Below, one piece after another: positions 6,029 through 57,989 of a DNA stretch of 64,000 bases. Below the pieces are notes generated by a model that made no database searches, was not told the DNA's origin, and was given only the letters and a program-made list of their open reading frames with translations. The stretch's first letter is position 1. Each line of letters begins with the position of its first letter. A program made the translations under genes and the position numbers. The DNA lies in NCBI RefSeq assembly GCF_000005825.2, contig NC_013791.2, forward strand, positions 186,001-250,000, in the 5' to 3' direction. The stretch comes from Alkalihalophilus pseudofirmus OF4. Its GTDB lineage: Bacteria; Bacillota; Bacilli; Bacillales; Bacillaceae_D.

Positions 6029-6058
6029 TTGAAAATGATTATCTATATCAATTATAAT
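6029..6058 (+). promoter_or_regulatory. SigA promoter with overlapping Fur box upstream of hmoA
   Basis: TTGAAA (6029-6034), an 18-bp spacer and TATAAT (6053-6058). GAAAATGATTATCTATATC at 6031-6049 overlaps the -35 and matches the Fur consensus at about 16 of 19 positions, which implies iron repression of the heme monooxygenase gene. Confidence 0.72.
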
Positions 6059-6087
6059 AATATTACCACCATAAGGAGGGATTTTCC

Positions 6088-6420
6088 ATGTTTGTTCAAG
6101 TAAAAACATTGGTAGTAGAAGAAGGATACGCGGATAAAATGGTAGAAAAATTTGCGACGGAAGGGATCATTGAGGAGCAGCCTGGTTTCTTAGATCTCAC
6201 AGTTTTACAAAAAAAGAAGCGTAGAGGCAATGAAGAAGTTATGGTTTTAATTCGTTGGGAGTCAGAAGAAGCGTGGAAAGCTTGGGAAACAAGCGAAGTG
6301 CACCTTGCTGGCCATAGAGCCAATCGCGGTAAGCCTAAGCCTGCATTTATTCTTGAGGGCGGGCAAGATGTATATCACGTAATCGGAACAAAAGAATATA
6401 GAGAACCTGTTTCAAAATAA
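6088..6420 (+). CDS. hmoA: Heme-degrading monooxygenase (IsdG/HmoA family)
   Basis: Small cytoplasmic enzyme that opens the heme porphyrin ring to release iron. The 110 aa match the antibiotic-biosynthesis-monooxygenase fold: an N-terminal MFVQVKTLVV strand, QPGFLDLTVLQKKK, and the heme-binding WESEEAWKAWETSEVHLAGH region with the conserved Trp and His. Length and ends resemble B. subtilis HmoA. The start follows TAAGGAGGG. A Fur box covers the promoter, and a strong terminator follows. Confidence 0.85.
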   Translation: MFVQVKTLVVEEGYADKMVEKFATEGIIEEQPGFLDLTVLQKKKRRGNEEVMVLIRWESEEAWKAWETSEVHLAGHRANRGKPKPAFILEGGQDVYHVIGTKEYREPVSK

Positions 6421-6426
6421 ACCAAA

Positions 6427-6479
6427 GCCCATCCGTAGGAACTTGCACGTACGTACTTATTAACGGATGGGCTTTTTTT
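6427..6479 (+). terminator. Terminator after hmoA
   Basis: GCCCATCCGT (6427-6436) pairs with ACGGATGGGC (6463-6472), followed by seven T residues. The 26-nt loop is long. It lies between convergent genes. Confidence 0.8.
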
Positions 6480-7509
6480 AGGCTTTAACTCCATTACCTC
6501 GTTTAGTAAGAAGCATATAAATTAGATAAGGCGCTCCAATCACAGAAATGACGATACCAACTGGAATATCAGCCGGAGCTAACAGATTCTTACCCACAAA
6601 ATCCGAAAAGAGCAGAATAAGCATGCCGATTAGCGCTGAGGCGGGCAGAAGGCTGTAGAAGTTTGGTCCGGTTAAACGCCTTGCAAGGTGAGGTGCTAAT
6701 AATCCTAAGAAAGAAATACCCCCGCCAACTGCCACACAAGCACCAGCTAATGCCGCAGCAAGCAGTAACAATATTCTTCTTTCACGCTCTACATTCATTC
6801 CAAGTGCATATGGTACAGGGTCACTAAGTTGCAGCAGATTCATCGTTTTCGCTTTGATAAATGCAAAGGGAAGTAAAACAATGATCCATGGAAGAAGGGC
6901 ATTAACATAGCGCCATTGGGTGCCCCAAATACTTCCTGTTAACCAAATGGTTGCTTGTTGAAAATCTCTTGGGTCCATTTTCAGTTGAATAATAATAAGA
7001 AGTGCCCCGCATAACGCATTAAAGCCGATCCCTATTAATAGCAGCCGGCCAGGATCTACTCCACCTTTAAAAGACAATGAATAGATTAACAAAGCGACTG
7101 TAAGTGCACCAATAAACGCAAAGACAGGCAGTGCAAATGGAGAGACAACATCTGTGGAGCCAGCCTGTTTGAAAACAAAGATAAACAATACAACGGCAAG
7201 GCCTGCTCCGGCGTTGATTCCTAAAATCCCTGGATCCGCTAATGCATTACGGGAAAGTCCTTGTAAAATAGCACCAGAAACAGCAAGACCTGCCCCAATT
7301 AATAACGCAATAACCATACGCGGCAGCCTTAATTGATAGAGGACAAGTTCTTGATTAGCTGTTCCATTTCCAAGGAATGTCTGGATAATCTCAGATAAGG
7401 AAAGCGGCATAATGCCAGTAGAGAGATTAAGTATAAAGGTCCCGAAAATCAAGAATATGATGATTAGCAGAGCTTTCTTTGATTGATGATACGCATTGAT
7501 CCATTCCAT
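6478..7509 (-). CDS. FecCD-family iron-siderophore ABC permease (second of pair)
   Basis: Membrane subunit of an iron(III)-siderophore importer with about 9-10 hydrophobic segments over 343 aa. Family landmarks are RLPRMVIALLIGAGLAVSGA near residue 60, RNALADPGILGINAGAG, and GGISFLGLLAPHLARRLTGP near the coupling region. Its ATG shares one base with the TAA of the upstream permease (TAATG), so the two are translationally coupled. Likely partners are the upstream permease and the binding lipoprotein at 9581. The arrangement resembles the YfiZ/YfhA pair of B. subtilis. No ATPase gene is adjacent. Confidence 0.9.
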   Translation of the reverse strand: MEWINAYHQSKKALLIIIFLIFGTFILNLSTGIMPLSLSEIIQTFLGNGTANQELVLYQLRLPRMVIALLIGAGLAVSGAILQGLSRNALADPGILGINAGAGLAVVLFIFVFKQAGSTDVVSPFALPVFAFIGALTVALLIYSLSFKGGVDPGRLLLIGIGFNALCGALLIIIQLKMDPRDFQQATIWLTGSIWGTQWRYVNALLPWIIVLLPFAFIKAKTMNLLQLSDPVPYALGMNVERERRILLLLAAALAGACVAVGGGISFLGLLAPHLARRLTGPNFYSLLPASALIGMLILLFSDFVGKNLLAPADIPVGIVISVIGAPYLIYMLLTKRGNGVKA

Positions 7510-8546
7510 TACATGCTTCTTCCTTTCACACGAGCTAAATATAGAAAAAAGGGTACACCGATAAGAGCAGTGATAGCGCCAACAGGTGTTTCAAAAGGCG
7601 GGTTAATCATCCTAGCCCCTATATCAGCAACAACTAATAAAAATGATCCTAGAATAGCACTTAGTGGAAGGATATACCTGTAATCAACACCTACAAGAGA
7701 CCGAACAATATGAGGCACGACTAAACCGATAAAGCCAATAGCTCCAGCAATTGATACCGCAGCTCCTGATAATAAAACAACCGCTGCTAGGCTCAGCCAC
7801 CTTACTAGATGAAGTGAATGCCCGAGTCCTGTAGCGATGTCATTTCCCATTGTAAGCGTAGTTAGAGAGCGGCTCATGAGAAAGGCTATTACTAAACCAG
7901 CAACGACTGTAGGAAAAAGTATGTACACATGAATCCATTTTGCTCCCGATAATCCCCCAGCAAACCAAAAACTTAAATCTTGAGAGACTTGATAGTAAAG
8001 AGCAATGCCTGTAGATAAAGAACTAAATAACATACTAAGAGCTGCTCCGGCGAGTGTAAGTGTGACAGGAGATAACTGTTCTTTTGATACCACAGAGAAT
8101 AGTAAGACTAAAATGGCTCCAAGAGCTGCACCCATAAATGACCAGCCAAGAAGAAGCCAATATGATAGATTAGTAAAAAAGGCTAATGCTATAGCAATAA
8201 AGAGAGCCGACCCTTGAGTGATCCCGATTATGGAAGGGTCAGCAAGAGGGTTTCGAGTTAACCCCTGCATAAGTGTTCCTGCCACAGCTAAAGCGGCTCC
8301 AACCAAGGCCGCAGTTAAGGCTCTAGGTATACGAACCTCGTGAATAAGCTGATGCTCAATTAAGTCAGGGGTAAAGGATATGAGTGAATCTAGGATGACC
8401 GATGGGGGAATCCATACTGCACCGAGGCCGATTGATAGTATGAGACTAAACAATACGCCACATAATCCTGCAATCATCCAGCGGCCGGGATGACCATTTT
8501 TAGATAAAAAATTTCTTGTTTTACTTGTTTTCGATAGTATTGACAT
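7509..8546 (-). CDS. FecCD-family iron-siderophore ABC permease (first of pair)
   Basis: 345-aa membrane subunit, partner of the gene at 6478. It carries RIPRALTAALVGAALAVAGT, RNPLADPSIIGITQGSAL and IGFIGLVVPHIVRSLVG, the FecCD signature blocks. It is the promoter-proximal gene of a two-gene operon. A perfect Fur palindrome lies about 31 bp upstream of its start and is shared with the divergent AraC gene. Substrate is inferred only from context: petrobactin or another citrate-type siderophore. Confidence 0.9.
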   Translation of the reverse strand: MSILSKTSKTRNFLSKNGHPGRWMIAGLCGVLFSLILSIGLGAVWIPPSVILDSLISFTPDLIEHQLIHEVRIPRALTAALVGAALAVAGTLMQGLTRNPLADPSIIGITQGSALFIAIALAFFTNLSYWLLLGWSFMGAALGAILVLLFSVVSKEQLSPVTLTLAGAALSMLFSSLSTGIALYYQVSQDLSFWFAGGLSGAKWIHVYILFPTVVAGLVIAFLMSRSLTTLTMGNDIATGLGHSLHLVRWLSLAAVVLLSGAAVSIAGAIGFIGLVVPHIVRSLVGVDYRYILPLSAILGSFLLVVADIGARMINPPFETPVGAITALIGVPFFLYLARVKGRSM

Positions 8547-8577
8547 GATTGTTAATCCCTCTTATAAAATAATTAAT

Positions 8578-8596
8578 GAAAATGATTATCATTTTC
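8578..8596. promoter_or_regulatory. Fur box, perfect 9-1-9 palindrome
   Basis: GAAAATGATTATCATTTTC is an exact inverted repeat around a central T and is nearly identical to the Bacillus Fur consensus. It lies between the divergent permease operon and the AraC gene and could control both. Confidence 0.88.
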
Positions 8597-8666
8597 GTTA
8601 TGATTGATTATAAATCTACTATTCATTTGGTAAATTTGTCAATTCATTTTTTGAGAGGGTTTTGAT

Positions 8667-9428
8667 ATGACTATAAGTAATGATTGTATTCTTCAGCTGA
8701 AATCCACCTCCTTCCAAACGCTGGAATGTGAGGAGCTGTTGGATGTTGGGATAGAAGATAATGAGATGTTATTGCTATACATAGAGACAGGGAGAGTGCA
8801 GGCTGAGCAAACAGGCAAGGAGAGTATTTATCAGAACGGAGACATTTTATGGGTTGATAAAACAGATAGAATTTATGCTTTAAACCAAGTAAATACCCTC
8901 TTTTTTGCTGTCGTTTGGATTGATCGTAAGAGATTGATAGAACCGCCTGTACTATATAAAGCATCACAAACGAAAGTTGATCCTTTATGGAAACAGCTGT
9001 TTACTGCTGCAAAGGACTCGTTTAATCAATACTGCAAACAACAGACTCTTTTCTGGAGCTTGCTAGATTTAATTACGCAAGAGCATACATCGTACCCTGG
9101 GAAAATGGAAATCATTATTGAAGAAATTACTAATCATATAGTTGACCCTGATATGGAACCTCTTACTGTTTCAGAGCTTGCAAAGAAGGCTAATATGACG
9201 CCTGCATCATTTTCAAGAGCGTTTAAAAGACATACGGGGTCTTCTCCTAAAGAGTTTATAAACAGCTGTCGTATAAAAAAAGCAAAGGAGCTAATGAGAG
9301 AGAAAAAGGATATTACTTTAAAAGAAGTTGCAGACCTTGCTGGATTTCAAGATGAATTTTACTTTAGTAAATTGTTTAAGAAAAAAGAAGGAGTAGCTCC
9401 ATCTATCTTTAAAAAAGAATTGCCGTGA
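8667..9428 (+). CDS. AraC-family transcriptional regulator (iron-uptake locus)
   Basis: DNA-binding activator of 253 aa. Residues about 1-145 form an AraC-type sensor region; residues about 150-250 hold two helix-turn-helix motifs (SELAKKANMTPASFSRAFKRH and LKEVADLAGFQDEFYFSKLFKK). It resembles Btr, which activates siderophore-uptake genes in B. subtilis, but lacks Btr's fused binding-protein domain. It is divergent from the permeases, in tandem with the binding protein, and under the shared Fur box. It probably activates the adjacent uptake or asb genes when the siderophore is present. Confidence 0.82.
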   Translation: MTISNDCILQLKSTSFQTLECEELLDVGIEDNEMLLLYIETGRVQAEQTGKESIYQNGDILWVDKTDRIYALNQVNTLFFAVVWIDRKRLIEPPVLYKASQTKVDPLWKQLFTAAKDSFNQYCKQQTLFWSLLDLITQEHTSYPGKMEIIIEEITNHIVDPDMEPLTVSELAKKANMTPASFSRAFKRHTGSSPKEFINSCRIKKAKELMREKKDITLKEVADLAGFQDEFYFSKLFKKKEGVAPSIFKKELP

Positions 9429-9523
9429 TCAACTAATTAAATATAGAAATAGTCAGTGGAAGGAAAAAAACAGGGAATCATTTGTACATGAATAAAGGTA
9501 AAAATGACCATGTTCTTTTTAAT

Positions 9524-9557
9524 TGATAATACTTATCATTGATAATGAATTTCATTA
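9524..9557 (+). promoter_or_regulatory. Tandem Fur boxes upstream of the siderophore-binding protein
   Basis: Two adjacent palindromes are visible: TGATAATACTTATCA (9524-9538, TGATAA/TTATCA arms) and TAATGAATTTCATTA (9543-9557, 7-1-7 perfect). The pattern matches overlapping Fur sites just upstream of the ribosome site of the lipoprotein gene. Confidence 0.78.
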
Positions 9558-9580
9558 TTGATTGTGCAGGGGGAAAAAAG

Positions 9581-10576
9581 ATGAGAAGAAGATGGACACT
9601 ATTGGCTTTGTTATGCTTGATTGCAGTGACTTTATTAGCTGCATGCGGTAATAGTTCGGAAGAGTCTACTGGGGCTGCGGCAGAAGAAGATTCCGAAACA
9701 GTAGAAGAGACAGAAGAGAATAGTTCAGAAGAGTCAAGTGAGAATGAATCACCTAGCAGTTACACTGTTGAACATTTGTATGGTGAAACAGAAGTGCCGG
9801 CTAATCCAGAAAAGGTAGTAGTATTATCACATGTGTCATGGGAAGGTTCATTAGTTTCTGTTGGAGTCGAGCCTTATGCTGTAATGGCGTATGACAACGA
9901 GTTTCCTCCGCATTTAACAGAAGAGTTAGAGAACGTAATGGCACTTCCATATTCTGATGAGATTAACCCAGAAGAAATTGTTCAGTTAGATCCTGATTTG
10001 CTTATTATCAGCGACCGTTATCAACCGTTATATGAGCAGCTTTCTGATTCGATCCCAACTGTCGTAGTAGAAGTTGGCGGGGACTGGAGAGATGACCATT
10101 TAAAAGTAACTGAAGCTGTAGGGAAACTTGAAGAAGGTCAAAAAGTGATAGATGAGCTAGAAGCAGAGGCAGAAGATATTGGCGAGCGTATTCGTGAGGC
10201 GGTTGGTGAAGAAACATTTATGGCTGTTTCCATTAACAAGCAAGACATTCGTGTCTATGGGAGAAACAATCATGCAACCAATGCTTTATTGTTTGATGAT
10301 CTTAAGCTTACGCCAGCAGAGAACATTCCTGATGACTTTGGTGAAAATATCTCGATTGAGGGCTTAGTGAAGTACAATCCAGATCATATTATTGACGTCA
10401 CATACTTTAATAGCGGTGAATTTTATGACAACGTCACTCAAGGTGAGGTATGGAATGGGTTAAATGCTGTTAAAGAAGATAATGTGCATACATTAACAAC
10501 AACTTGGGGATTTTGGGATCCAATTGAACGTCAAAAAGGTTTAAAAGAAATTGAAAACCTTTTATTAGGAGAGTAG
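9581..10576 (+). CDS. Iron-siderophore-binding lipoprotein (FepB/FhuD-like, class III SBP)
   Basis: Extracellular receptor of the importer formed with the two FecCD permeases. ATG 9581 follows a GGGGG ribosome site. Residues 1-22 are a lipoprotein signal with lipobox LLAAC, then an acidic low-complexity linker to about residue 65. The periplasmic-binding domain shows NPEKVVVLSHVSWEGSLVSVG, INPEEIVQLDPDLLIIS and the C-terminal NVHTLTTTWGFWDP region. About 331 aa is typical. It lies directly upstream of asbA and is tightly Fur-controlled, so petrobactin is the likely ligand. YfiY-like hydroxamate-citrate ligands remain possible. Confidence 0.88.
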   Translation: MRRRWTLLALLCLIAVTLLAACGNSSEESTGAAAEEDSETVEETEENSSEESSENESPSSYTVEHLYGETEVPANPEKVVVLSHVSWEGSLVSVGVEPYAVMAYDNEFPPHLTEELENVMALPYSDEINPEEIVQLDPDLLIISDRYQPLYEQLSDSIPTVVVEVGGDWRDDHLKVTEAVGKLEEGQKVIDELEAEAEDIGERIREAVGEETFMAVSINKQDIRVYGRNNHATNALLFDDLKLTPAENIPDDFGENISIEGLVKYNPDHIIDVTYFNSGEFYDNVTQGEVWNGLNAVKEDNVHTLTTTWGFWDPIERQKGLKEIENLLLGE

Positions 10577-10609
10577 TGAGTAAACAGATCTCATTTCACG
10601 AAGGAAAAG

Positions 10610-10628
10610 CGGGGAAACCCGTTTTTTT
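10610..10628 (+). terminator. Terminator after the siderophore-binding protein gene
   Basis: CGGG-GAAA-CCCG, a GAAA tetraloop hairpin, is followed by seven T residues. Confidence 0.8.
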
Positions 10629-10638
10629 CTTCATTCTA

Positions 10639-10657
10639 ATTGAGAATGAGTATCAAT
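10639..10657 (+). promoter_or_regulatory. Fur box upstream of the asb operon
   Basis: ATTGAGAATGAGTATCAAT lies 33 bp upstream of the asbA start. It conforms to the GAGAATGA/TATCA Fur half-site pattern. Confidence 0.75.
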
Positions 10658-10690
10658 TACTAGGTAAATAGAAGCAGGAAGGATGAGAGT

Positions 10691-12502
10691 ATGCAAAGCA
10701 CAGCCAAGCTAATTGCAGAACAAGCTTCATTTAAGGCATTCTTGAATTGCTATGTACGTGAGATGAATGTTAGAGAGGTAGTGAGGCTAGAGGAGGCAGA
10801 AGATCAAGAGGTTAAAAAACAAATGAATGAACCCTATATCCTTTTTATATCTTTGCCCCATCAATCACTTACATATGCAATTGGAGTAACGTATAAGTCC
10901 CTTGTAGGCACTCATTCTTTCGGGAACGTATATAAGCAATCCCCCTATTGTAGTGAGTGGGTACAAGAAGAGAAGCTGCAAGCAATGATTACACTCATCC
11001 GAGAATTACATATGAGAGCAAATGCTGAATCAAGAGCAGGCGATTCTCATTTCGATGAATTACTCCTTAGACTAATAGATAGCTATCAAACAATGGCTCA
11101 ATTTATTGACCACGCAATAAAAAAAGAAGAAACAGCCTCTCCTAGAAATCGAGAATTTATTGATTTTGAGCAGTCGCTGGTATTTGGTCACTGGCTTCAT
11201 CCTACTCCAAAAAGCAGACAAGGGATCGCAAGCTGGCAGCATGAACGCTTTAGTCCAGAGAAGAATGGACATTTTCAATTGCATTATTTTAAGGTGAACA
11301 ATTCTCTCATTGTTGATCAAAGTGATGGCGACGCATCTTGCGGAGAATTACTTTTACGTGAGTTAGAGATTAGAGAGCAGACACCTGGTTGGTCCTTGCT
11401 GCCAGTCCATCCATTACAAGCACAATGGCTTATAACTCAGCCTCAAGTAAAAACATTAATGGATAAAGGCTTAATTGAAGAAGCAGGTGCAATGGGGCCG
11501 GAATTCTATGCTACTTCATCCATTAGGACAGTGTATAACAAGAAAAGTAACTGGATGTTTAAGTTTTCCATACCGGTGAAGGTAACGAATTCACTGCGTA
11601 ATAACCAAAAACATGAATTGTACGCAGGCCGCAATATGACAAAGCTATTAAAGAAACTCCCTTTGCTTAAAGAATACCCTTCTTTTCAATTTATTCATGA
11701 CCCAGCATTTCTTACTGTAAATATTCCAGGAATGAAAGAGAGCGGGTTTGAGGTCATTATTAGATCAAACCCTTTTACAAATGGAAATGAAGCCGGTGTG
11801 ACTCCAATCGCAGCACTTATTCAAGATGCACTTCCTGGGAGGAAATCGATGCTCCAACAGCTTATAGAGGAACTGGCAATGGATGAGGGGAGAAGTCAAG
11901 AAGATGTTAGTTTTGATTGGTTTAAGAACTATTTTGAGAAGACGGTCATACCACTCATCCATTTATATGATACGTATGGGATTGCCTTAGAAGCTCACCA
12001 GCAAAACAGCTTAATTGATCTTTCTGCCGGCTACCCTGCTTCTTTTTATTACCGCGATAACCAGGGGTATTACCTATCCACACAATATAGAGAACGACTC
12101 TTGAAAATGGAGGAATCCTTACAGAAAACACCTGAGCTCTTTTATGAAGAGAAGCTGATCGAAGAACGGTTTACGTATTATTTATTTATAAATCATTTGT
12201 TTTCTATTGTTTATCGTTTCGGAGCAGATGGTCTACTAGAAGAGAATGTAATACTTGACTATATTCAAGATCAACTCAAAGAGATGTATACCTTATGTCA
12301 TGGTGCTGGCAAGAGATTACTAGAGATGCTTCTTACGAGAGAAAAGCTGGCTTTTAAAGCAAATTTACTCACTAGATTTCATGACGTAGATGAACTAACC
12401 GCGGCTCTCGAACAAGCTGTTTACGCAACGCTTGATAATCCATTTATATCTAAAGAAAAAGGAGAGGTCCCTTATGCAGGTAGAGAAAGTGCCAAAGTCT
12501 AA
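10691..12502 (+). CDS. asbA: Petrobactin biosynthesis NIS synthetase AsbA (IucA/IucC family)
   Basis: ATP-dependent NRPS-independent siderophore synthetase that, in petrobactin assembly, joins spermidine to citrate. The 603-aa protein has the family ATP-site motifs FGHWLHPTPKSRQG, LLPVHPLQAQW and FKFSIPVKVTNSLRNN, and the C-terminal FhuF-like half with GIALEAHQQNSLI. It is the first gene of a six-gene operon whose order equals asbABCDEF of the B. cereus group. It overlaps asbB by 29 nt. A Fur box precedes it. Confidence 0.92.
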   Translation: MQSTAKLIAEQASFKAFLNCYVREMNVREVVRLEEAEDQEVKKQMNEPYILFISLPHQSLTYAIGVTYKSLVGTHSFGNVYKQSPYCSEWVQEEKLQAMITLIRELHMRANAESRAGDSHFDELLLRLIDSYQTMAQFIDHAIKKEETASPRNREFIDFEQSLVFGHWLHPTPKSRQGIASWQHERFSPEKNGHFQLHYFKVNNSLIVDQSDGDASCGELLLRELEIREQTPGWSLLPVHPLQAQWLITQPQVKTLMDKGLIEEAGAMGPEFYATSSIRTVYNKKSNWMFKFSIPVKVTNSLRNNQKHELYAGRNMTKLLKKLPLLKEYPSFQFIHDPAFLTVNIPGMKESGFEVIIRSNPFTNGNEAGVTPIAALIQDALPGRKSMLQQLIEELAMDEGRSQEDVSFDWFKNYFEKTVIPLIHLYDTYGIALEAHQQNSLIDLSAGYPASFYYRDNQGYYLSTQYRERLLKMEESLQKTPELFYEEKLIEERFTYYLFINHLFSIVYRFGADGLLEENVILDYIQDQLKEMYTLCHGAGKRLLEMLLTREKLAFKANLLTRFHDVDELTAALEQAVYATLDNPFISKEKGEVPYAGRESAKV

Positions 12503-19949: not shown

Positions 19950-21344
19950 ATGGGAAACATGGGGCAGGAACGAGAGAGCCAAACTATATATAAATCAGTG
20001 AAACCATTGGTTGAACAATATGGACTCGAGGCGGTACCTAGAGACTTACAAACAACCAAGGCATTACAATATACATTTATTCAAATGGCCGTCTCAGTTA
20101 ATGCAGGTAATGTATTGGTTCCTGCTTTAGCAGTGACAGCAGGGGGGCTCACATTTATTCAAGCCGTCTTCTCTACAGTAATAGGAGCAGCGTTAGCTTT
20201 CTTATTTGTCTCCTTTCTATCATTGCCAGGAGCAAAATACGGCATTCCAGCCCAATATTCAATACGAGCTATTCTCGGATATAAGGGAGCGCGTTATGTG
20301 GCCTCTCCTATACGGACGATTACCTCTATGTATTGGTTTGCTGTGCAAACAATAGGAGGAGCTTATTTGCTAAAAGAACTGATTCTGCGATCTTTTAATA
20401 TAAATGTACCTTTTCTGCTCATCGCCCTGATTGCAGCTACAATTATGGCTGTATTAGCGTTAATAGGGTTTGATGCGGTAAAAAGAGCAGCTAACTATTT
20501 CTTGCCTTTTCTTTTTGTTGGTGGTTTGGTCATGTTGTACATCCTTGTAACAAGTGAAGTAGAGGGCAAGAATTTTTCTTTTCTCATTAGTGGTGCTGAA
20601 CGCTCCTATTCTTTTGAAACAGTGACGATGATGTTGTTCTTTGCAAGCCTCGCTTTCGTTCAATATATATCTGGAGTGAGTGCAGCGTCTGATATGGCTC
20701 GCTATGCAAAGAGTGGAAAACATGCATTTACTGGATTATTTATCGGCAATACTGGCGGCTTCTTTTTAACTGCCGTCCTTGGGGCCTATACAGCAGCTTT
20801 AACTGGTGAGGTTAATCCATACGTAGTATCGAGTCAATTGACAGACTCACCAATTTTTTTATTTCTTATTTTAGTGGCTTCCATTGCATCGATGGTGATG
20901 ATAAATATCAGTAATGCCTATACTGGTGGATATAGTTTACTAAACAGTATCCCGAGTCTTGGCAGGGTGAGATGTGCTTTGTTGTTTGGAGCTTGTGCAG
21001 TCACATTAAGTGCCTTTCCGGCTCTTGTAAATGAAGCGCAGTTATATATCTCTTATTTAGGAGTGTTTATTATTCCTCTATCAGCTGTAATTGTAGCTGA
21101 CTTTTTATCTTTGAAAAAGTTAACGTTTGAAGAAGAAGATTTTAGAAAGTTAGCAGAGAACAGCTACCGGTATAATAAATCAGGATTGATTGTATCTGCA
21201 CTTGGAGCTGGAATCTATATACTCATACCTGATCACTGGTCCCCGGGGTTTATGACATTTATAGTGACAGGTCTTATCTACCTCTTCACGGCTCACTACA
21301 TTCATAGAAAAGAAGTGAGACACCCTATTACACGGGTAAGCTAA
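19950..21344 (+). CDS. NCS1-family nucleobase:cation symporter
   Basis: 464-aa membrane protein with about 12 hydrophobic segments, of the cytosine/purine/thiamine permease (NCS1) family. N-terminal SVNAGNVLVPALAVTAGG and central FVQYISGVSAASDMARYA, with the helix-breaking NTGGFF, fit the family. A cytosolic N-terminus of about 45 residues precedes the first helix. Ligand is unknown. It is monocistronic with AGAAGGGA at the start and is divergent from the CBS-ACT gene. Confidence 0.82.
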   Translation: MGNMGQERESQTIYKSVKPLVEQYGLEAVPRDLQTTKALQYTFIQMAVSVNAGNVLVPALAVTAGGLTFIQAVFSTVIGAALAFLFVSFLSLPGAKYGIPAQYSIRAILGYKGARYVASPIRTITSMYWFAVQTIGGAYLLKELILRSFNINVPFLLIALIAATIMAVLALIGFDAVKRAANYFLPFLFVGGLVMLYILVTSEVEGKNFSFLISGAERSYSFETVTMMLFFASLAFVQYISGVSAASDMARYAKSGKHAFTGLFIGNTGGFFLTAVLGAYTAALTGEVNPYVVSSQLTDSPIFLFLILVASIASMVMINISNAYTGGYSLLNSIPSLGRVRCALLFGACAVTLSAFPALVNEAQLYISYLGVFIIPLSAVIVADFLSLKKLTFEEEDFRKLAENSYRYNKSGLIVSALGAGIYILIPDHWSPGFMTFIVTGLIYLFTAHYIHRKEVRHPITRVS

Positions 21345-29388: not shown

Positions 29389-29945
29389 GATTAATCTCCT
29401 CTCAGATGAATTAAATAGACAATAACCTACTAAACCTACAAGTAATTGCTAAGAAAACTATAGCTTAATAATGTAGATAAAGTCAATTTAGTATTTTCAA
29501 AATAATAAATTTTCTAACAAATTAGCGCACAAAAACTGATCTCTCTATTAATTTCGACATGTTTCACGGGAAACATGTCAATTAAATGGTAATGACTATC
29601 AATTCAAGTAGATATATGTTGAAGGATTCTTCTACCACACAAAAGGGATTCAAAAGATCTTTCTGGAATGTTTCATAAGTGAAGACGACAACAAATATTT
29701 AAAGATTGAGAGATAACCTTACATTAATACGAAAAACAGCCTAGCTGCGTGGTAGGATAACGCTCAAGGAAATGTGCTTTTTACAAAATGATAAACAAAA
29801 GTATTCAAGGGTTTAACACTTTGTATGATGTATTTGTCCTGACTCACACGTAGAATTGATATTGAAGTCAAACTATTCTAATAATTTAGATGTGGATCAT
29901 TTTACTTATTGTGAAATAACTTAACTTTGCTTAGGGGGAATTAAG
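29389..29945. other. Long intergenic region between divergent genes
   Basis: About 550 bp without a credible gene. It must hold promoters for the divergent lipoprotein and beta-ureidopropionase genes. A parS-like palindrome lies at 29560-29575, and a weak Fur-like segment (GGTAATGACTATCAATTC) at about 29588-29605. Nothing else was recognised. Confidence 0.6.
29560..29575. promoter_or_regulatory. parS-like site (Spo0J/ParB binding)
   Basis: TGTTTCACGGGAAACA differs from the Bacillus parS consensus TGTTNCACGTGAAACA at a single base. It is embedded in a longer perfect inverted repeat, GACATGTTTC/GAAACATGTC (29556-29579), around ACGG. It lies between divergent genes, outside coding sequence. Confidence 0.65.
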
Positions 29946-52845: not shown

Positions 52846-52875
52846 ATTGACAATGATTATCAATAGCAGTATAGT
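52846..52875 (+). promoter_or_regulatory. SigA promoter overlapped by a Fur box
   Basis: TTGACA (52847-52852), a 17-bp spacer and TATAGT (52870-52875). ATTGACAATGATTATCAAT (52846-52864) is a near-consensus Fur box covering the -35. Confidence 0.85.
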
Positions 52876-54081: not shown

Positions 54082-55761
54082 ATGAGTCAGCACCTAGACA
54101 ACGAAAAAAATAATAGGAAAAACCCTCAGGTTGGAGACGATACGTCTCCAACCTCTCGCCGTTTATTTAAGGGTATTCGCTTTAGCAAAAATCGAGGGAG
54201 CAGGCCAGGTGGAGTTTTATTTACATTTGCGGCGTTAACGGGTTTGTTAATGGCTATACCAGTTTTTTATGTTGTATGGAGATCATTGTTTGCTGGTACG
54301 GACAGGTGGATGCGCTTACTTGATACTCGTATTCCCCAATTAATTTGGAATACGATGTCCTTAACCTTTATGGTGACTTTATTCGCGGTCTCAATCGGCG
54401 TGTTGCTGGCATGGATTGTCAATCGGACAAGCCTGCCAGGAAGAAAGATGTGGCAGTGGCTGCTTGCTCTTCCTTTAGTCATACCGCCGTACGTAGGAGC
54501 TGTTGCCTACATTATTGTATTTGGCCCTAGGGGATGGCTATGGAGAGAGTGGCGTGAGAATGAGTGGCTGTTAAATGTATTTGGGGAATACCCAATTAAT
54601 GTCTACTCGTTTTGGGGAATATTTATTGTTCTAACTTTATTCACCTATCCGTATGTATTTTTAATTGCCAGTGCTTCACTTAGAAAAATGAACCGTAACT
54701 ATGAAGAAGTGGCAAGGTCACAAGGAATGACGACTTCACAAATTTTTTGGAAAGTGAATATTCCATTTCTTCGTCCCGCAATTGGTGCTGGAGCTATCCT
54801 AATTGCTTTATATGTACTGTCTGATTTCGGTGCGATTGCGATGATGCGGTATACAACATTTACAGCAGCTATTTACTACCAAATGGGAAGTTATGATAAT
54901 GTTTCAGCTACTGTTTTAAGTGTGGTTTTAATTGTCCTTACACTAGTTATTTTGTGGATTGAATCCAGAACTAAGAAGAAACAATCGTATTATCAAACAA
55001 GTAATACATTTAAAGAGCCTGACATTTTAAGTCTTGGAAAATGGAAATGGCCTGCGCTTATATTTGTAAGCACGATTTTCTTCATCTCGGTTATCTTGCC
55101 GGTCATTGTCCTCGTTTATTGGTCAATTCTTGGCCTAGAGGCAGGGGCACTGGATTCAAGATTCTGGGGATATGCATGGAATAGTGTGAAGGTTTCTGGT
55201 ATGGCAGCTCTCATTTGTATGATCTTAGCTCTGCCAGTAGTTTATTTGCGCTCTAGGTATCCTTCCAAAGCATCTGCTATTATTGAAAAGATGAGTTATG
55301 CAGGTTATGCGTTACCTGGAGTCATAGTTGCACTTGGGATCATCTTTATTTTTAACCAGTATATACCTATGCTTTATAATACCTTTTATTTGGTGGCCAT
55401 TGCTTTTGTGATTCGGTTTTTACCACAGGCAATGCAGTCAACAGATGCTTCGCTCAGCCTCATTTCTCCACGGATAGACGAGGCAGCGAGAAGCCTGGGC
55501 CAGCCTCCTTGGAAGGTCATGATCAAAGTTATTATTCCATCTATTCTGCCTGGTATCCTGGCAGGGGGCGCACTCGTATTTGTAAGCAGTATTAAAGAGC
55601 TTCCAGCTACTTTATTACTCAGACCTCCTGGGTTTGATACACTTGCAGTACGTATTTGGGTAGAGACAAGCGAAGCCATTTACCATATGGCGGCACCCGC
55701 GGCTTTGCTTATTGTTATCGTTTCTATCATTCCTTTGCGTTATTTGCTTAAAAAGTATTAA
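54082..55761 (+). CDS. fbpB: Ferric iron ABC transporter permease (FbpB-like, double unit)
   Basis: 559-aa membrane protein with two fused permease units and about 12 hydrophobic segments. The EAA-type loops are NYEEVARSQGMTTSQIFWKV (first half) and IDEAARSLGQPPWKVMIKV (second half). A hydrophilic N-terminus of about 45 residues precedes the first helix. It forms the channel for the FbpA/FbpC pair. A terminator follows. Confidence 0.92.
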   Translation: MSQHLDNEKNNRKNPQVGDDTSPTSRRLFKGIRFSKNRGSRPGGVLFTFAALTGLLMAIPVFYVVWRSLFAGTDRWMRLLDTRIPQLIWNTMSLTFMVTLFAVSIGVLLAWIVNRTSLPGRKMWQWLLALPLVIPPYVGAVAYIIVFGPRGWLWREWRENEWLLNVFGEYPINVYSFWGIFIVLTLFTYPYVFLIASASLRKMNRNYEEVARSQGMTTSQIFWKVNIPFLRPAIGAGAILIALYVLSDFGAIAMMRYTTFTAAIYYQMGSYDNVSATVLSVVLIVLTLVILWIESRTKKKQSYYQTSNTFKEPDILSLGKWKWPALIFVSTIFFISVILPVIVLVYWSILGLEAGALDSRFWGYAWNSVKVSGMAALICMILALPVVYLRSRYPSKASAIIEKMSYAGYALPGVIVALGIIFIFNQYIPMLYNTFYLVAIAFVIRFLPQAMQSTDASLSLISPRIDEAARSLGQPPWKVMIKVIIPSILPGILAGGALVFVSSIKELPATLLLRPPGFDTLAVRIWVETSEAIYHMAAPAALLIVIVSIIPLRYLLKKY

Positions 55762-55782
55762 CGATTACCTTATTAACTTCGA

Positions 55783-55812
55783 AGGGGTCCTGAAAAGGGA
55801 TCCCTTTTTTAT
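55783..55812 (+). terminator. Terminator after fbpB
   Basis: GGGGTCC pairs with GGATCCC (one wobble), followed by TTTTTTATTT. Confidence 0.75.
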
Positions 55813-55828
55813 TTGACTGAAAATTTAA

Positions 55829-55880
55829 TTGACAATGAGAATCTTTTTCATTTAAAATAAAGTGAGAATAATTATCAACG
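55829..55880 (+). promoter_or_regulatory. Promoter and Fur boxes upstream of the DUF2325 gene
   Basis: TTGACA (55829-55834), an 18-bp spacer and TAAAAT (55853-55858). TGACAATGAGAATC overlaps the -35, and TGAGAATAATTATCA (55863-55877) is a Fur-like 7-1-7 repeat just after the -10. Confidence 0.7.
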
Positions 55881-55894
55881 AAGGAGTGATATAT

Positions 55895-56212
55895 ATGTCT
55901 TCTTTATTAATAGTCGGAGCGGATCGTCTTGGGAGTATTCCTCAGAAGCTAGAAGGGTTGGGTTTCAAACAGATTACACATGTAGATGGGAGAAAGGCGC
56001 AGATGGTAAAGAAAGAAATTCCATCTCATATTGACCTTATATTAGTTCTTACCGATTTTATTAATCATAATTTAACTTCTGTACTCAAGAAAAAGGCTGC
56101 TGAACAAAACATTCCGATTTGTTATGCGAAACGCTCATGGTGTTCTATATATCAATCGATTGGACGGTGTAATTTCGGGTGTGATAAAGAGACTCCATGT
56201 CCATTTAAATAA
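55895..56212 (+). CDS. DUF2325 domain protein, Fur-linked
   Basis: 105-aa cytoplasmic protein. ATG 55895 follows AAGGAGTGA. The DUF2325 pattern is SSLLIVGADRLGSIPQKLEGLGF, then THVDGRK, HIDLILVLTDFINHNL and AKRSWCSIYQSI. The C-terminus adds a cysteine cluster (CNFGCDKETPCPF), with three Cys close together, which could bind metal. Its TAA overlaps the first possible start of the next gene. Function is unknown; the Fur boxes suggest a role under iron limitation. Confidence 0.82.
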   Translation: MSSLLIVGADRLGSIPQKLEGLGFKQITHVDGRKAQMVKKEIPSHIDLILVLTDFINHNLTSVLKKKAAEQNIPICYAKRSWCSIYQSIGRCNFGCDKETPCPFK

Positions 56213-56235
56213 TGAAAAGTGAGGGGGGAATGAAG

Positions 56236-56799
56236 ATGGTTAATGCGAACCTTCAACTGATATATTCGGAATATAACTTGTCTCAGCGTTTATTAAACAG
56301 CATTCAAAAAGTAGTGAATAAAATTGTTAGAGAGTATTGTCTCCAACCAGTTGAAGAACGTCACGTGGTTACATTGTTGAAATTGATTACTACATATAAA
56401 AGAGACCTTGATAAAGGTTTATTTACTACTACAAAACAGTATATTGAAATCTTAGCTGTTTTAGTTGATCACTTCATCTACACACTAACGGAAATCGGTG
56501 GTCAAGTTCAAATCGCTGGAATTAGAAATGATCTTTGCATGATTACAGATGAAGATGGGAAGGTCATTCTGAAAATGATAGTTGTGCAAGCAGATTCACA
56601 AAGGGTTTCTATATATTTACAGGAGCTAAGAAAGATTGGGATAAAACTTTGTGACGAAGGTGATTTAACTCTCGAAGTTATCGATATTATAAGCGGAAAA
56701 AGATATACCAGCTTGCAAAATACAGGTTATATCCAACAAGAGGCACATCCTTATCAGATCACAAACTTAATAACCGATATAAACCATTTTTGTTCATAG
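56236..56799 (+). CDS. Unknown protein co-transcribed with the DUF2325 gene
   Basis: 187-aa protein. ATG 56236 is best spaced (7 nt) from a GAGGGGGG ribosome site; ATG 56212 and 56230 are also in frame. The N-terminal half is predicted helical (SQRLLNSIQKVVNKIVREYC), while the C-terminal half appears alpha/beta. Cys residues are scattered and there is no signal or membrane segment. I do not recognise a family. The 23-bp gap and shared Fur-type promoter place it with the DUF2325 gene in an iron-responsive operon. Confidence 0.75.
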   Translation: MVNANLQLIYSEYNLSQRLLNSIQKVVNKIVREYCLQPVEERHVVTLLKLITTYKRDLDKGLFTTTKQYIEILAVLVDHFIYTLTEIGGQVQIAGIRNDLCMITDEDGKVILKMIVVQADSQRVSIYLQELRKIGIKLCDEGDLTLEVIDIISGKRYTSLQNTGYIQQEAHPYQITNLITDINHFCS

Positions 56800-56820
56800 T
56801 GAAAAATGGTTTATTTTTTT
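56781..56820 (+). terminator. Terminator overlapping the end of the unknown gene
   Basis: AAACCATTTTT (56781-56791) pairs with AAAAATGGTTT (56802-56812), followed by ATTTTTTT. The 5' arm lies within the last codons. Confidence 0.82.
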
Positions 56821-56973
56821 GTCATATACATACTATTTTCAAGGGATCTTACATAGAAATATTTTATATAGGAGTTAATAAAGGAACATAAAGGGCGGCT
56901 TATTCATACAATCAAGTAGAATAGAAGCTGTCTCCAAAGACTAGACATTTTTATAAAAGTGTGACAAAATAAA

Positions 56974-56991
56974 GTTGCCCTAAGACAAAAT
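56974..56991. promoter_or_regulatory. Possible MntR-like box upstream of the metal-binding lipoprotein
   Basis: GTTGCCCTAAGACAAAAT resembles the MntR operator core TTTGCCTTAAGGAAA (TTGCC, TAAG and AA blocks match). This is a weak match judged by eye. Confidence 0.3.
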
Positions 56992-57028
56992 AGTTTTCCG
57001 TGGTGAAGAGTTAACCAACTATTTTTTT
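56987..57028 (+). terminator. Terminator-like hairpin in the metal-SBP leader
   Basis: AAAATAGTT (56987-56995) pairs with AACTATTTT (57017-57025), followed by TTT, about 65 bp before the start codon. It may be an attenuator or the terminator of an upstream transcript. Confidence 0.4.
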
Positions 57029-57092
57029 GTACTATTTTTTGCCTGTACACAACTTTTTTAGTGAGAGTAAAAATAGAGAAAGGATGATGAGA

Positions 57093-57989
57093 GTGCGTAA
57101 GTGGTTTTTTGCTTTAGTCGTTTTATTGATGAGTCTATTTGTTGCAGCGTGTGGAGGAGATGGAGAAAGTGAAGAAACTGGGGAACTGAAAGTCGTTACG
57201 AGCTTTTCGATCTTAGCTGATATTACAAAGAATGTGACCGGGGACCTTGCTGCTGTTGAGTACTTGGTGCCGATCGGTGAAGAACCTCATGGATATGAGC
57301 CTATTCCGAGTGATTTTCAGAAGGCCAGTGATTCATCTGTTTTTTATGTGAATGGTTTAGGGCTTGAGGAGTGGCTAGAGCGTTTGGTTGCTAATGCTGG
57401 CGGGGCTGATATTGTGACAGTTTCTGATGGTATTGACGTTATTCCGGTTGATGGTACAAATGAAGATGACCCTCATGCATGGTTAGATGTTAAAAATGTG
57501 ATAGCTTATGTAGAAACTATTCGTGATGATTTAATGGAACGAGATCCTGATAATGCTGAGGCTTATGAGGCTAATGCTGAAGCCTATATTCAGGAATTAA
57601 CTGAATTAGATGAATGGATTAGTGAAGAATCAGAAGAAATTCCAGAAGATAAACGAACCATTGTAATAAGTGAAAATGCGTTTAAATACTTTGGTGCAGC
57701 CTATGGGTATGAAACAATTGGAATTTGGGAATTGAATTCTCATGAAGAGGGAACTCCGGGTCAAATTTCTCGAGTAGTTGATTTAATTCAAGAAAAAGAG
57801 ATTCCAGCAGTCTTCTTAGAAACAACGATTGACAGCCGTTTTATGGATACTGTCTCTAGTAATGCTGGTGTAGAGATTGCAGGTGAGGTATACACAGATG
57901 CGATCGGGGCTGACGGCAGCGGGGCAGAAACGTATGTAGATATGATGAAACATAATGTAAACACTTTTTTAGAAGGCTTAAAGAAATAA
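57093..57989 (+). CDS. Manganese/zinc-type ABC transporter binding lipoprotein (cluster A-I)
   Basis: Extracellular receptor for a divalent metal, about 298 aa. GTG 57093 is best spaced from AAAGGA; ATG 57084 and 57087 are in-frame alternatives. The lipobox VAAC follows the signal. Metal ligands of the TroA/PsaA/ZnuA family are visible: His in GEEPHGYEP, His in EDDPHAWLD, Glu in VFLETTIDSRF and Asp in VYTDAIG. The lack of a long His-rich loop favours a manganese-type protein. No permease or ATPase gene is adjacent, so it is an orphan receptor here. Confidence 0.87.
   Translation: MRKWFFALVVLLMSLFVAACGGDGESEETGELKVVTSFSILADITKNVTGDLAAVEYLVPIGEEPHGYEPIPSDFQKASDSSVFYVNGLGLEEWLERLVANAGGADIVTVSDGIDVIPVDGTNEDDPHAWLDVKNVIAYVETIRDDLMERDPDNAEAYEANAEAYIQELTELDEWISEESEEIPEDKRTIVISENAFKYFGAAYGYETIGIWELNSHEEGTPGQISRVVDLIQEKEIPAVFLETTIDSRFMDTVSSNAGVEIAGEVYTDAIGADGSGAETYVDMMKHNVNTFLEGLKK

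Follow-up and report, generated by a model that had tools for sequence, protein, structure and literature searches.

A Fur-controlled operon that serves iron limitation is a known kind of system, and a DUF2325 gene with a Fur motif is already in print for Campylobacter, where the passages of PMC4491227 on this gene describe it as iron-responsive. Campylobacter jejuni Cj1384c, as treated in the relevant part of PMC9426514, has seven cysteines, is encoded in the katA cluster and is under the control of PerR and RacRS; in the same part the Campylobacter DUF2325 homologue appears as the most induced gene of one light-stress study. A further system of interest is the flavodoxin operon ykuNOP of Bacillus subtilis, which includes the "hypothetical protein" gene ykuO and is given as a member of the Fur regulon in the sections of PMC4409812 and PMC3896406 that list it. 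For the IMEF encapsulins, a Bfd-like ferredoxin has been named for the release of iron, according to the corresponding sections of PMC6668986 and PMC8346489, and the discussion of iron release in the latter treats ferredoxin as a proposal and the matter as not settled. The word DUF2325 was not found in these two IMEF papers; a paper on anammox encapsulins includes DUF2325, in the passage concerned, among the possible secondary cargoes.

Here we describe a two-gene operon of Alkalihalophilus pseudofirmus OF4, in which a DUF2325 gene (gene A) is followed by a second gene (gene B). The operon lies within the stretch of DNA that was analysed as a whole, 64 kb in length and referred to below as the window. 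An earlier note on this DNA had suggested that the pair might be undescribed. This stands for the pair, in that no published account of A-B, of the ancestry of B or of a linkage to Fur and encapsulin in Bacilli was found in the portions of the open-licence literature covered, but not for the kind of control, since a Campylobacter DUF2325 gene with a Fur motif (PMC4491227) and the Fur-controlled ykuNOP operon (PMC4409812, PMC3896406) are in print in the passages cited above. The features of the locus, all on the plus strand, are as follows.

52848..52862, +, one-mismatch Fur box ahead of the SBP gene belonging to the adjacent iron-type ABC transporter (Fur scan)
55781..55807, +, intrinsic terminator that closes the ABC transporter operon 5' of A-B (terminator scan)
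55829..55858, +, A-B promoter, TTGACA-18-TAAAAT (11 of 12 positions as in the consensus)
55836..55850, +, weak Fur-like site TGAGAATCTTTTTCA with three mismatches, within the promoter spacer (Fur scan)
55863..55877, +, Fur box TGAGAATAATTATCA with one mismatch (boxes also lie upstream of relatives)
55880-55886, +, ribosome site GAAGGAG of gene A (from the sequence)
55895..56212, +, gene A, DUF2325 protein of 105 aa with a Cys-rich tail (PF10087 match)
56236..56799, +, gene B, 187 aa, apparently a shortened, divergent and degenerate member of a PD-(D/E)XK/Cas4-like family (matches of relatives)
56781..56820, +, terminator-like inverted repeat AAACCATTTTT/AAAAATGGTTT and T run, 3' of B (read from the sequence)

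The upstream ABC transporter operon consists, by profile matches, of an ATPase, an SBP and a permease, the SBP gene having its own Fur box, and the terminator at 55781-55807 sets the A-B pair apart from it. Genes A and B run in the same direction with 23 bases between them. This layout, with its near-consensus Fur box, upholds the claim that a promoter with Fur-like sites, common to both genes, follows the transporter. The promoter match taken alone is weak, because five promoter-like sites were found in the stretch around A-B and 5.7 are expected by shuffling. The repeat 3' of B has a loop of 10, which is beyond the limits of the terminator scan, hence its absence from that scan's output. An Rfam scan of 55700-57100 gave no match at the gathering score.

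The box TGAGAATAATTATCA upstream of A has one mismatch to the Fur consensus, three to that of PerR and five to that of Zur, the PerR and Zur consensus sequences being general knowledge. The Fur consensus is TGATAATNATTATCA, as cited in the pertinent section of PMC5467902. A scan of the window found nine Fur sites at up to two mismatches, one of them that of A. Six of the other eight precede iron-type genes, namely those for an ABM-domain protein, a FecCD/AraC pair, a Peripla_BP_2 protein (two sites), an IucA/IucC-FhuF protein and the transporter SBP; the other two are the site at 29587 and the site at 20896, which has no gene start nearby. As an observation on the window itself, the region 6030-12502 carries Fur boxes ahead of the ABM-domain (heme monooxygenase-like) gene, the FecCD permease/AraC regulator pair, an iron-type SBP gene and the IucA/IucC-FhuF siderophore gene.

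Of 51 short DUF2325 genes, which encode 49 distinct proteins, 47 have an upstream Fur box at up to two mismatches and 32 have one at up to one mismatch. The corresponding frequencies in the controls, at up to two mismatches, were 22/264 for ORFs distant from the tagged genes, 40/175 for ORFs near them and 0.8% for shuffled sequences; when the search window of the control was applied to the short DUF2325 genes, the count was again 47/51. The four genes in which the box was absent are at L191, L199, L205 and L206. This set of 51 leaves out proteins of at least 160 aa, matches weaker than 1e-12 (the class loci L189, L192 and L193, at which no Fur box was found), the unmatched loci L188 and L207, L026 (which shares a contig with L057) and the split copy at L076. 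For B, 38 of 40 operons carry a box at up to two mismatches no further than 300 bases (+60) from their first gene, and 30 of 40 carry one at up to one mismatch; this test, with its controls, replaced a looser one, a box within 1.5 kb of B, which gave 39/40. The two operons without a box are L096 and L149, the latter having a two-mismatch site inside an over-long flavodoxin frame. With a box at its promoter that recurs in relatives, the A-B operon fits the Fur regulon. The earlier proposal of an iron-linked pair is supported on these points: Fur control is indicated by sequence, and the linkage of the pair is seen again in other genomes.

The product of gene A matches PF10087 with 58.5 bits (cut-off 33.6) and is therefore a DUF2325 protein. 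The positions that do not vary among the 51 short DUF2325 proteins are G8, D10, I15, L19, H29, G32, R33, K34, H58, N59, K65, A68 and S81, and 49 of the proteins have D54. The conserved core consists of H29, GRK (32-34), D54 and H58-N59. The Cys-rich tail, CNFGCDKETPCPF, had been put forward as a possible metal-binding cluster. It is indeed present in A of the window, but a C-x(2-4)-C-x(3-6)-C tail is found in 20 of the 51, so the tail is a feature of a lineage and was dropped as a general, defining metal site. A structure model of A (pLDDT 72) gave no Foldseek hit at E up to 0.001. Cj1384c is like A in being a short, Cys-rich DUF2325 protein with a Fur repression motif, and is strongly iron-responsive (passages in PMC4491227, PMC3815106 and PMC9426514); unlike A, it belongs to the katA cluster and is under PerR control too, and the text on it in these passages mentions no B partner.

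The two genes differ in how widely they are kept. In the 41 genomes of the window's family, a relative of A occurs in 28. All 16 genomes with B are among these, the other 12 carry A only, and the 13 that have neither are all of one genus. When long proteins are included, the DUF2325 domain is found in 53 of 200 genomes of the class. B relatives occur in 24 of 299 genomes of the order and, by profile search, in 61 of 398 genomes of the class, the window's own genome being included in each count. Neighbourhoods were read from 10-kb stretches, covering A loci of 20 of the 27 A-bearing family genomes besides the window's own, B loci of 20 of the 23 other B-bearing genomes of the order, and 20 class B loci from the 60 genomes with B besides the window's own, of which G174 gave two; the data on plasmids come from four of the seven plasmid records that have A. 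When the window is compared with L026, dN/dS is 0.063 in A against 0.273 in B; with L058, of the same species as the window, the values are 0.11 and 0.564, respectively. Though based on few substitutions, these values show weaker constraint on B. In our reading, A would be the core of the system and B appears to be in the course of being lost in the window's lineage.

Searched by itself against Pfam, NCBIfam, PHROGs and PDB sequences, window B gives no significant match, and to this extent the description of B as a protein without a recognisable family was correct. Its relatives at the order and class levels rule out a family-less orphan, and in profile searches they point to a PD-(D/E)XK/Cas4 ancestry. 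The B protein of Alkalihalophilus marmarensis (L026), the single named genome locus seen to carry the A-B pair, is 79% identical over its length; the long relatives, of ~230-280 aa, have a CPYRFYY-like motif at the start and CxxCPFxxxC at the end. With a permissive E limit of 10, PDDEXK_1 matches 12 of 21 aligned members, the best of them at 1.2e-5, and four proteins are above the Pfam cut-off (L142, 1.7e-6; L012, 1.4e-5; L014, 4.1e-5; L017, 7.1e-5). With an E limit of 1, the same profile matches six of ten class members, one of them above the cut-off, and four have no match; neither window B nor either of the two plasmid B proteins matches it. The cas4 profile matches 4 of the 21 at E up to 10, the best match (5.2e-6, model positions 54-179) scoring 26.4 bits against a cut-off of 65, which no B member tested reached. 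An hhalign comparison of long B with local Cas4 proteins aligned 19 columns with a probability of 1.7% and did not confirm the ancestry; the structure model of window B (pLDDT 36) was too poor for use. No relatives were found in viral contigs by the patterns used.

The B family is like the Cas4/AddB/PDDEXK_1 Fe-S nucleases in the profile matches of its long members and in its cysteines: pattern searches show the whole Cas4-like set (N-terminal CPxxF and C-terminal CxxC-x(4-6)-C) in 16 of 40 aligned B proteins, one half of it in 7 and no part of it in 17. It is unlike them in motif III, where the column that we read from the alignment as the acid has no D or E in any of the 40 (I, V, L, F or A instead), and in its failure to attain the cas4 cut-off. 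The motif III K is retained in 36 of the 40 and the motif II D only in part. Window B departs further, having neither the Cas4-type set of one N-terminal and three C-terminal cysteines nor a profile match. By sequence, B is best placed, as a fast-evolving and shortened protein, in a family with PD-(D/E)XK/Cas4 profile matches among its long members. Our reading is that it descends from an Fe-S nuclease fold, as the profile matches suggest, and would no longer be a nuclease, because the motif III acid is missing across the aligned family; an active nuclease is disfavoured for the same reason.

The same evidence bears on the idea of a signalling pair under Fur, in which A, as a Rossmann-like regulator, would sense a ligand and B would serve as its nuclease-like output domain, resembling the CARF-nuclease effectors known in general. 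The invariant putative ligand site of A and the PD-(D/E)XK fold from which B appears to come are what such a pair would have, but the loss of the motif III acid from B, the lack of a CARF match for A in Pfam and the 32 of 40 loci in which A is not directly 5' of B make it very unlikely.

In the loci examined, B more often follows flavodoxin than DUF2325. Among 40 loci, B is directly preceded by flavodoxin in 19, by DUF2325 in 8 and by an FNR-like reductase in 2, whereas 11 have no such gene in this place; of the eight DUF2325-B loci, two run on into flavodoxin. A Fur box accompanies 18 of the 19 flavodoxin-B loci, and the arrangements extend to plasmids, with flavodoxin, then B and a one-mismatch Fur box on Paenibacillus pHD02 and an A-B pair with a two-mismatch box on an Anoxybacillus plasmid. 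Such loci are like ykuNOP, a flavodoxin operon of the Fur regulon that also encodes an uncharacterised protein. This likeness of arrangement makes YkuO a candidate relative of B; window B differs from it in lying 3' of DUF2325, not of flavodoxin. A protein of 134-135 aa is encoded 3' of flavodoxin-B in two loci of one genus (L089:5531-5938 and L094:5590-5994, L094 being turned so that B is on +), and its L089 copy matches the IDEAL domain.

The flavodoxin that precedes B in those 19 loci, together with the Cas4-like Cys set of the 16 B proteins, would suit an iron-sparing function, in which A-B would take over or mend Fe-S functions during iron shortage, as flavodoxin does, for instance as a pair for Fe-S trafficking or repair. 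We regard this as unlikely, given that the Cys set is missing from window B and that A is linked to encapsulin and ferritin.

Encapsulin (PF04454) is present in 8 of 41 family genomes and 31 of 200 class genomes. Comparison of positions places A within 1.5 kb of it in 21 of these 39 genomes, 7 of the 8 in the family and 14 of the 31 in the class, 13 of these 14 belonging to one family (f68) and thus not being independent events. A adjoins shell genes in three families, and in this its loci are like IMEF encapsulin operons. They are unlike them in the window, whose genome has no PF04454 match and cannot be assigned an IMEF encapsulin, while the published neighbours are a Bfd-like ferredoxin and ferrochelatase-like proteins (operon descriptions in PMC6668986). 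Because the window genome lacks encapsulin, an encapsulin-only role of A cannot be general. The IMEF cargo was tested at two loci, both of the window's family: L063, with the order A-B-cargo-shell, has an encap_f1 shell and a TIGR04536 cargo above their cut-offs (cargo 135.8 bits, cut-off 100), and L070, with the order A-cargo-shell, has an encap_f1 shell above the cut-off and a TIGR04536 cargo below it (58.9 bits, cut-off 100). An uncharacterised protein of 151-164 aa also adjoins the encapsulin genes in two genera (L063:2336-2821 and L070:6846-7340 on the minus strand) and, at L147:5500-5955, lies between a flavodoxin-B operon and encapsulin; the L063 copy, for which there is no Pfam match, is 66% and 38% identical to those of L070 and L147, respectively.

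On the plasmid pNitYY0814_PLS of Nitratiruptor (L236), DUF2325 is followed by porin, ferritin and imelysin genes and, further on, FTR1, and it faces a "transcriptional repressor"; the cluster also contains a multiheme cytochrome. A Fur box with one mismatch is found at DUF2325 on the Nitratiruptor and Arcobacter plasmids, and the Peribacillus plasmid copy is without one.

A PerR-like box without mismatches, TTATAATNATTATAA, lies just 3' of A in all five loci of genus g3 (L070, L071, L073, L074 and L076), and none was seen at seven other encapsulin loci examined (L063, L064, L218-L221 and L226). With the PerR-like box ahead of encapsulin and the Fur box before DUF2325, the g3 clusters possibly combine separate peroxide and iron control. 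This box brings into view an oxidative-stress module in which A would quench or sense ROS or free iron, the link to iron arising through Fur-PerR cross-talk. The Campylobacter gene cj1384c points the same way, as it clusters with katA, is regulated by PerR and RacRS and was 352-fold up in violet-blue light (results given in PMC9426514). However, the window box is closer to Fur than to PerR, the neighbours are genes of iron uptake, iron storage and flavodoxin, the PerR-like box is confined to g3 among the encapsulin loci examined, and many A proteins have no more than zero to two cysteines; we consider such a module improbable.

Our preferred reading, held with moderate confidence, is that A-B is a Fur-repressed iron-limitation operon in which A mobilises or redistributes intracellular iron and B is an accessory redox or adaptor partner. 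Iron limitation would derepress the bicistronic operon from Fur. A, predicted to be a small alpha/beta (Rossmann-like) cytosolic protein with a strongly constrained, invariant His/GRK/HN site, would then act on intracellular iron, either mobilising or redistributing stored or chelated iron or protecting the cell meanwhile. B would be an accessory redox/adaptor protein that shares its descent with Cas4/RecB-type Fe-S nucleases in fold but no longer has the nuclease motif; its usual partner would be flavodoxin or a ferredoxin-reductase-like enzyme, and in the window's lineage it may be losing its cysteines and being dispensed with.

A more far-reaching version may also be considered, in which DUF2325 is a Bfd-like iron-release factor across phyla, controlled by Fur and unlocking encapsulin, ferritin and other stores with electrons from flavodoxin or FNR, and in which B is a former Cas4-type nuclease turned Fe-S electron-transfer adaptor, its metal-binding cysteines having moved to the tail of A in the window's lineage. 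In 19 A-B pairs, which are from related genomes and not independent, the A tail occurs without the full B set in nine, the B set without the tail in five, both in three and neither in two. We think this version quite unlikely as a whole.

A and B are probably part of the cells' way of coping with too little iron. The widespread DUF2325 family gains a testable role from its position behind Fur boxes and beside iron stores in Bacillota and Campylobacterota, and B would represent a nuclease fold apparently turned into an iron/redox partner of flavodoxin. Both proteins are candidates for getting iron out of encapsulin stores.
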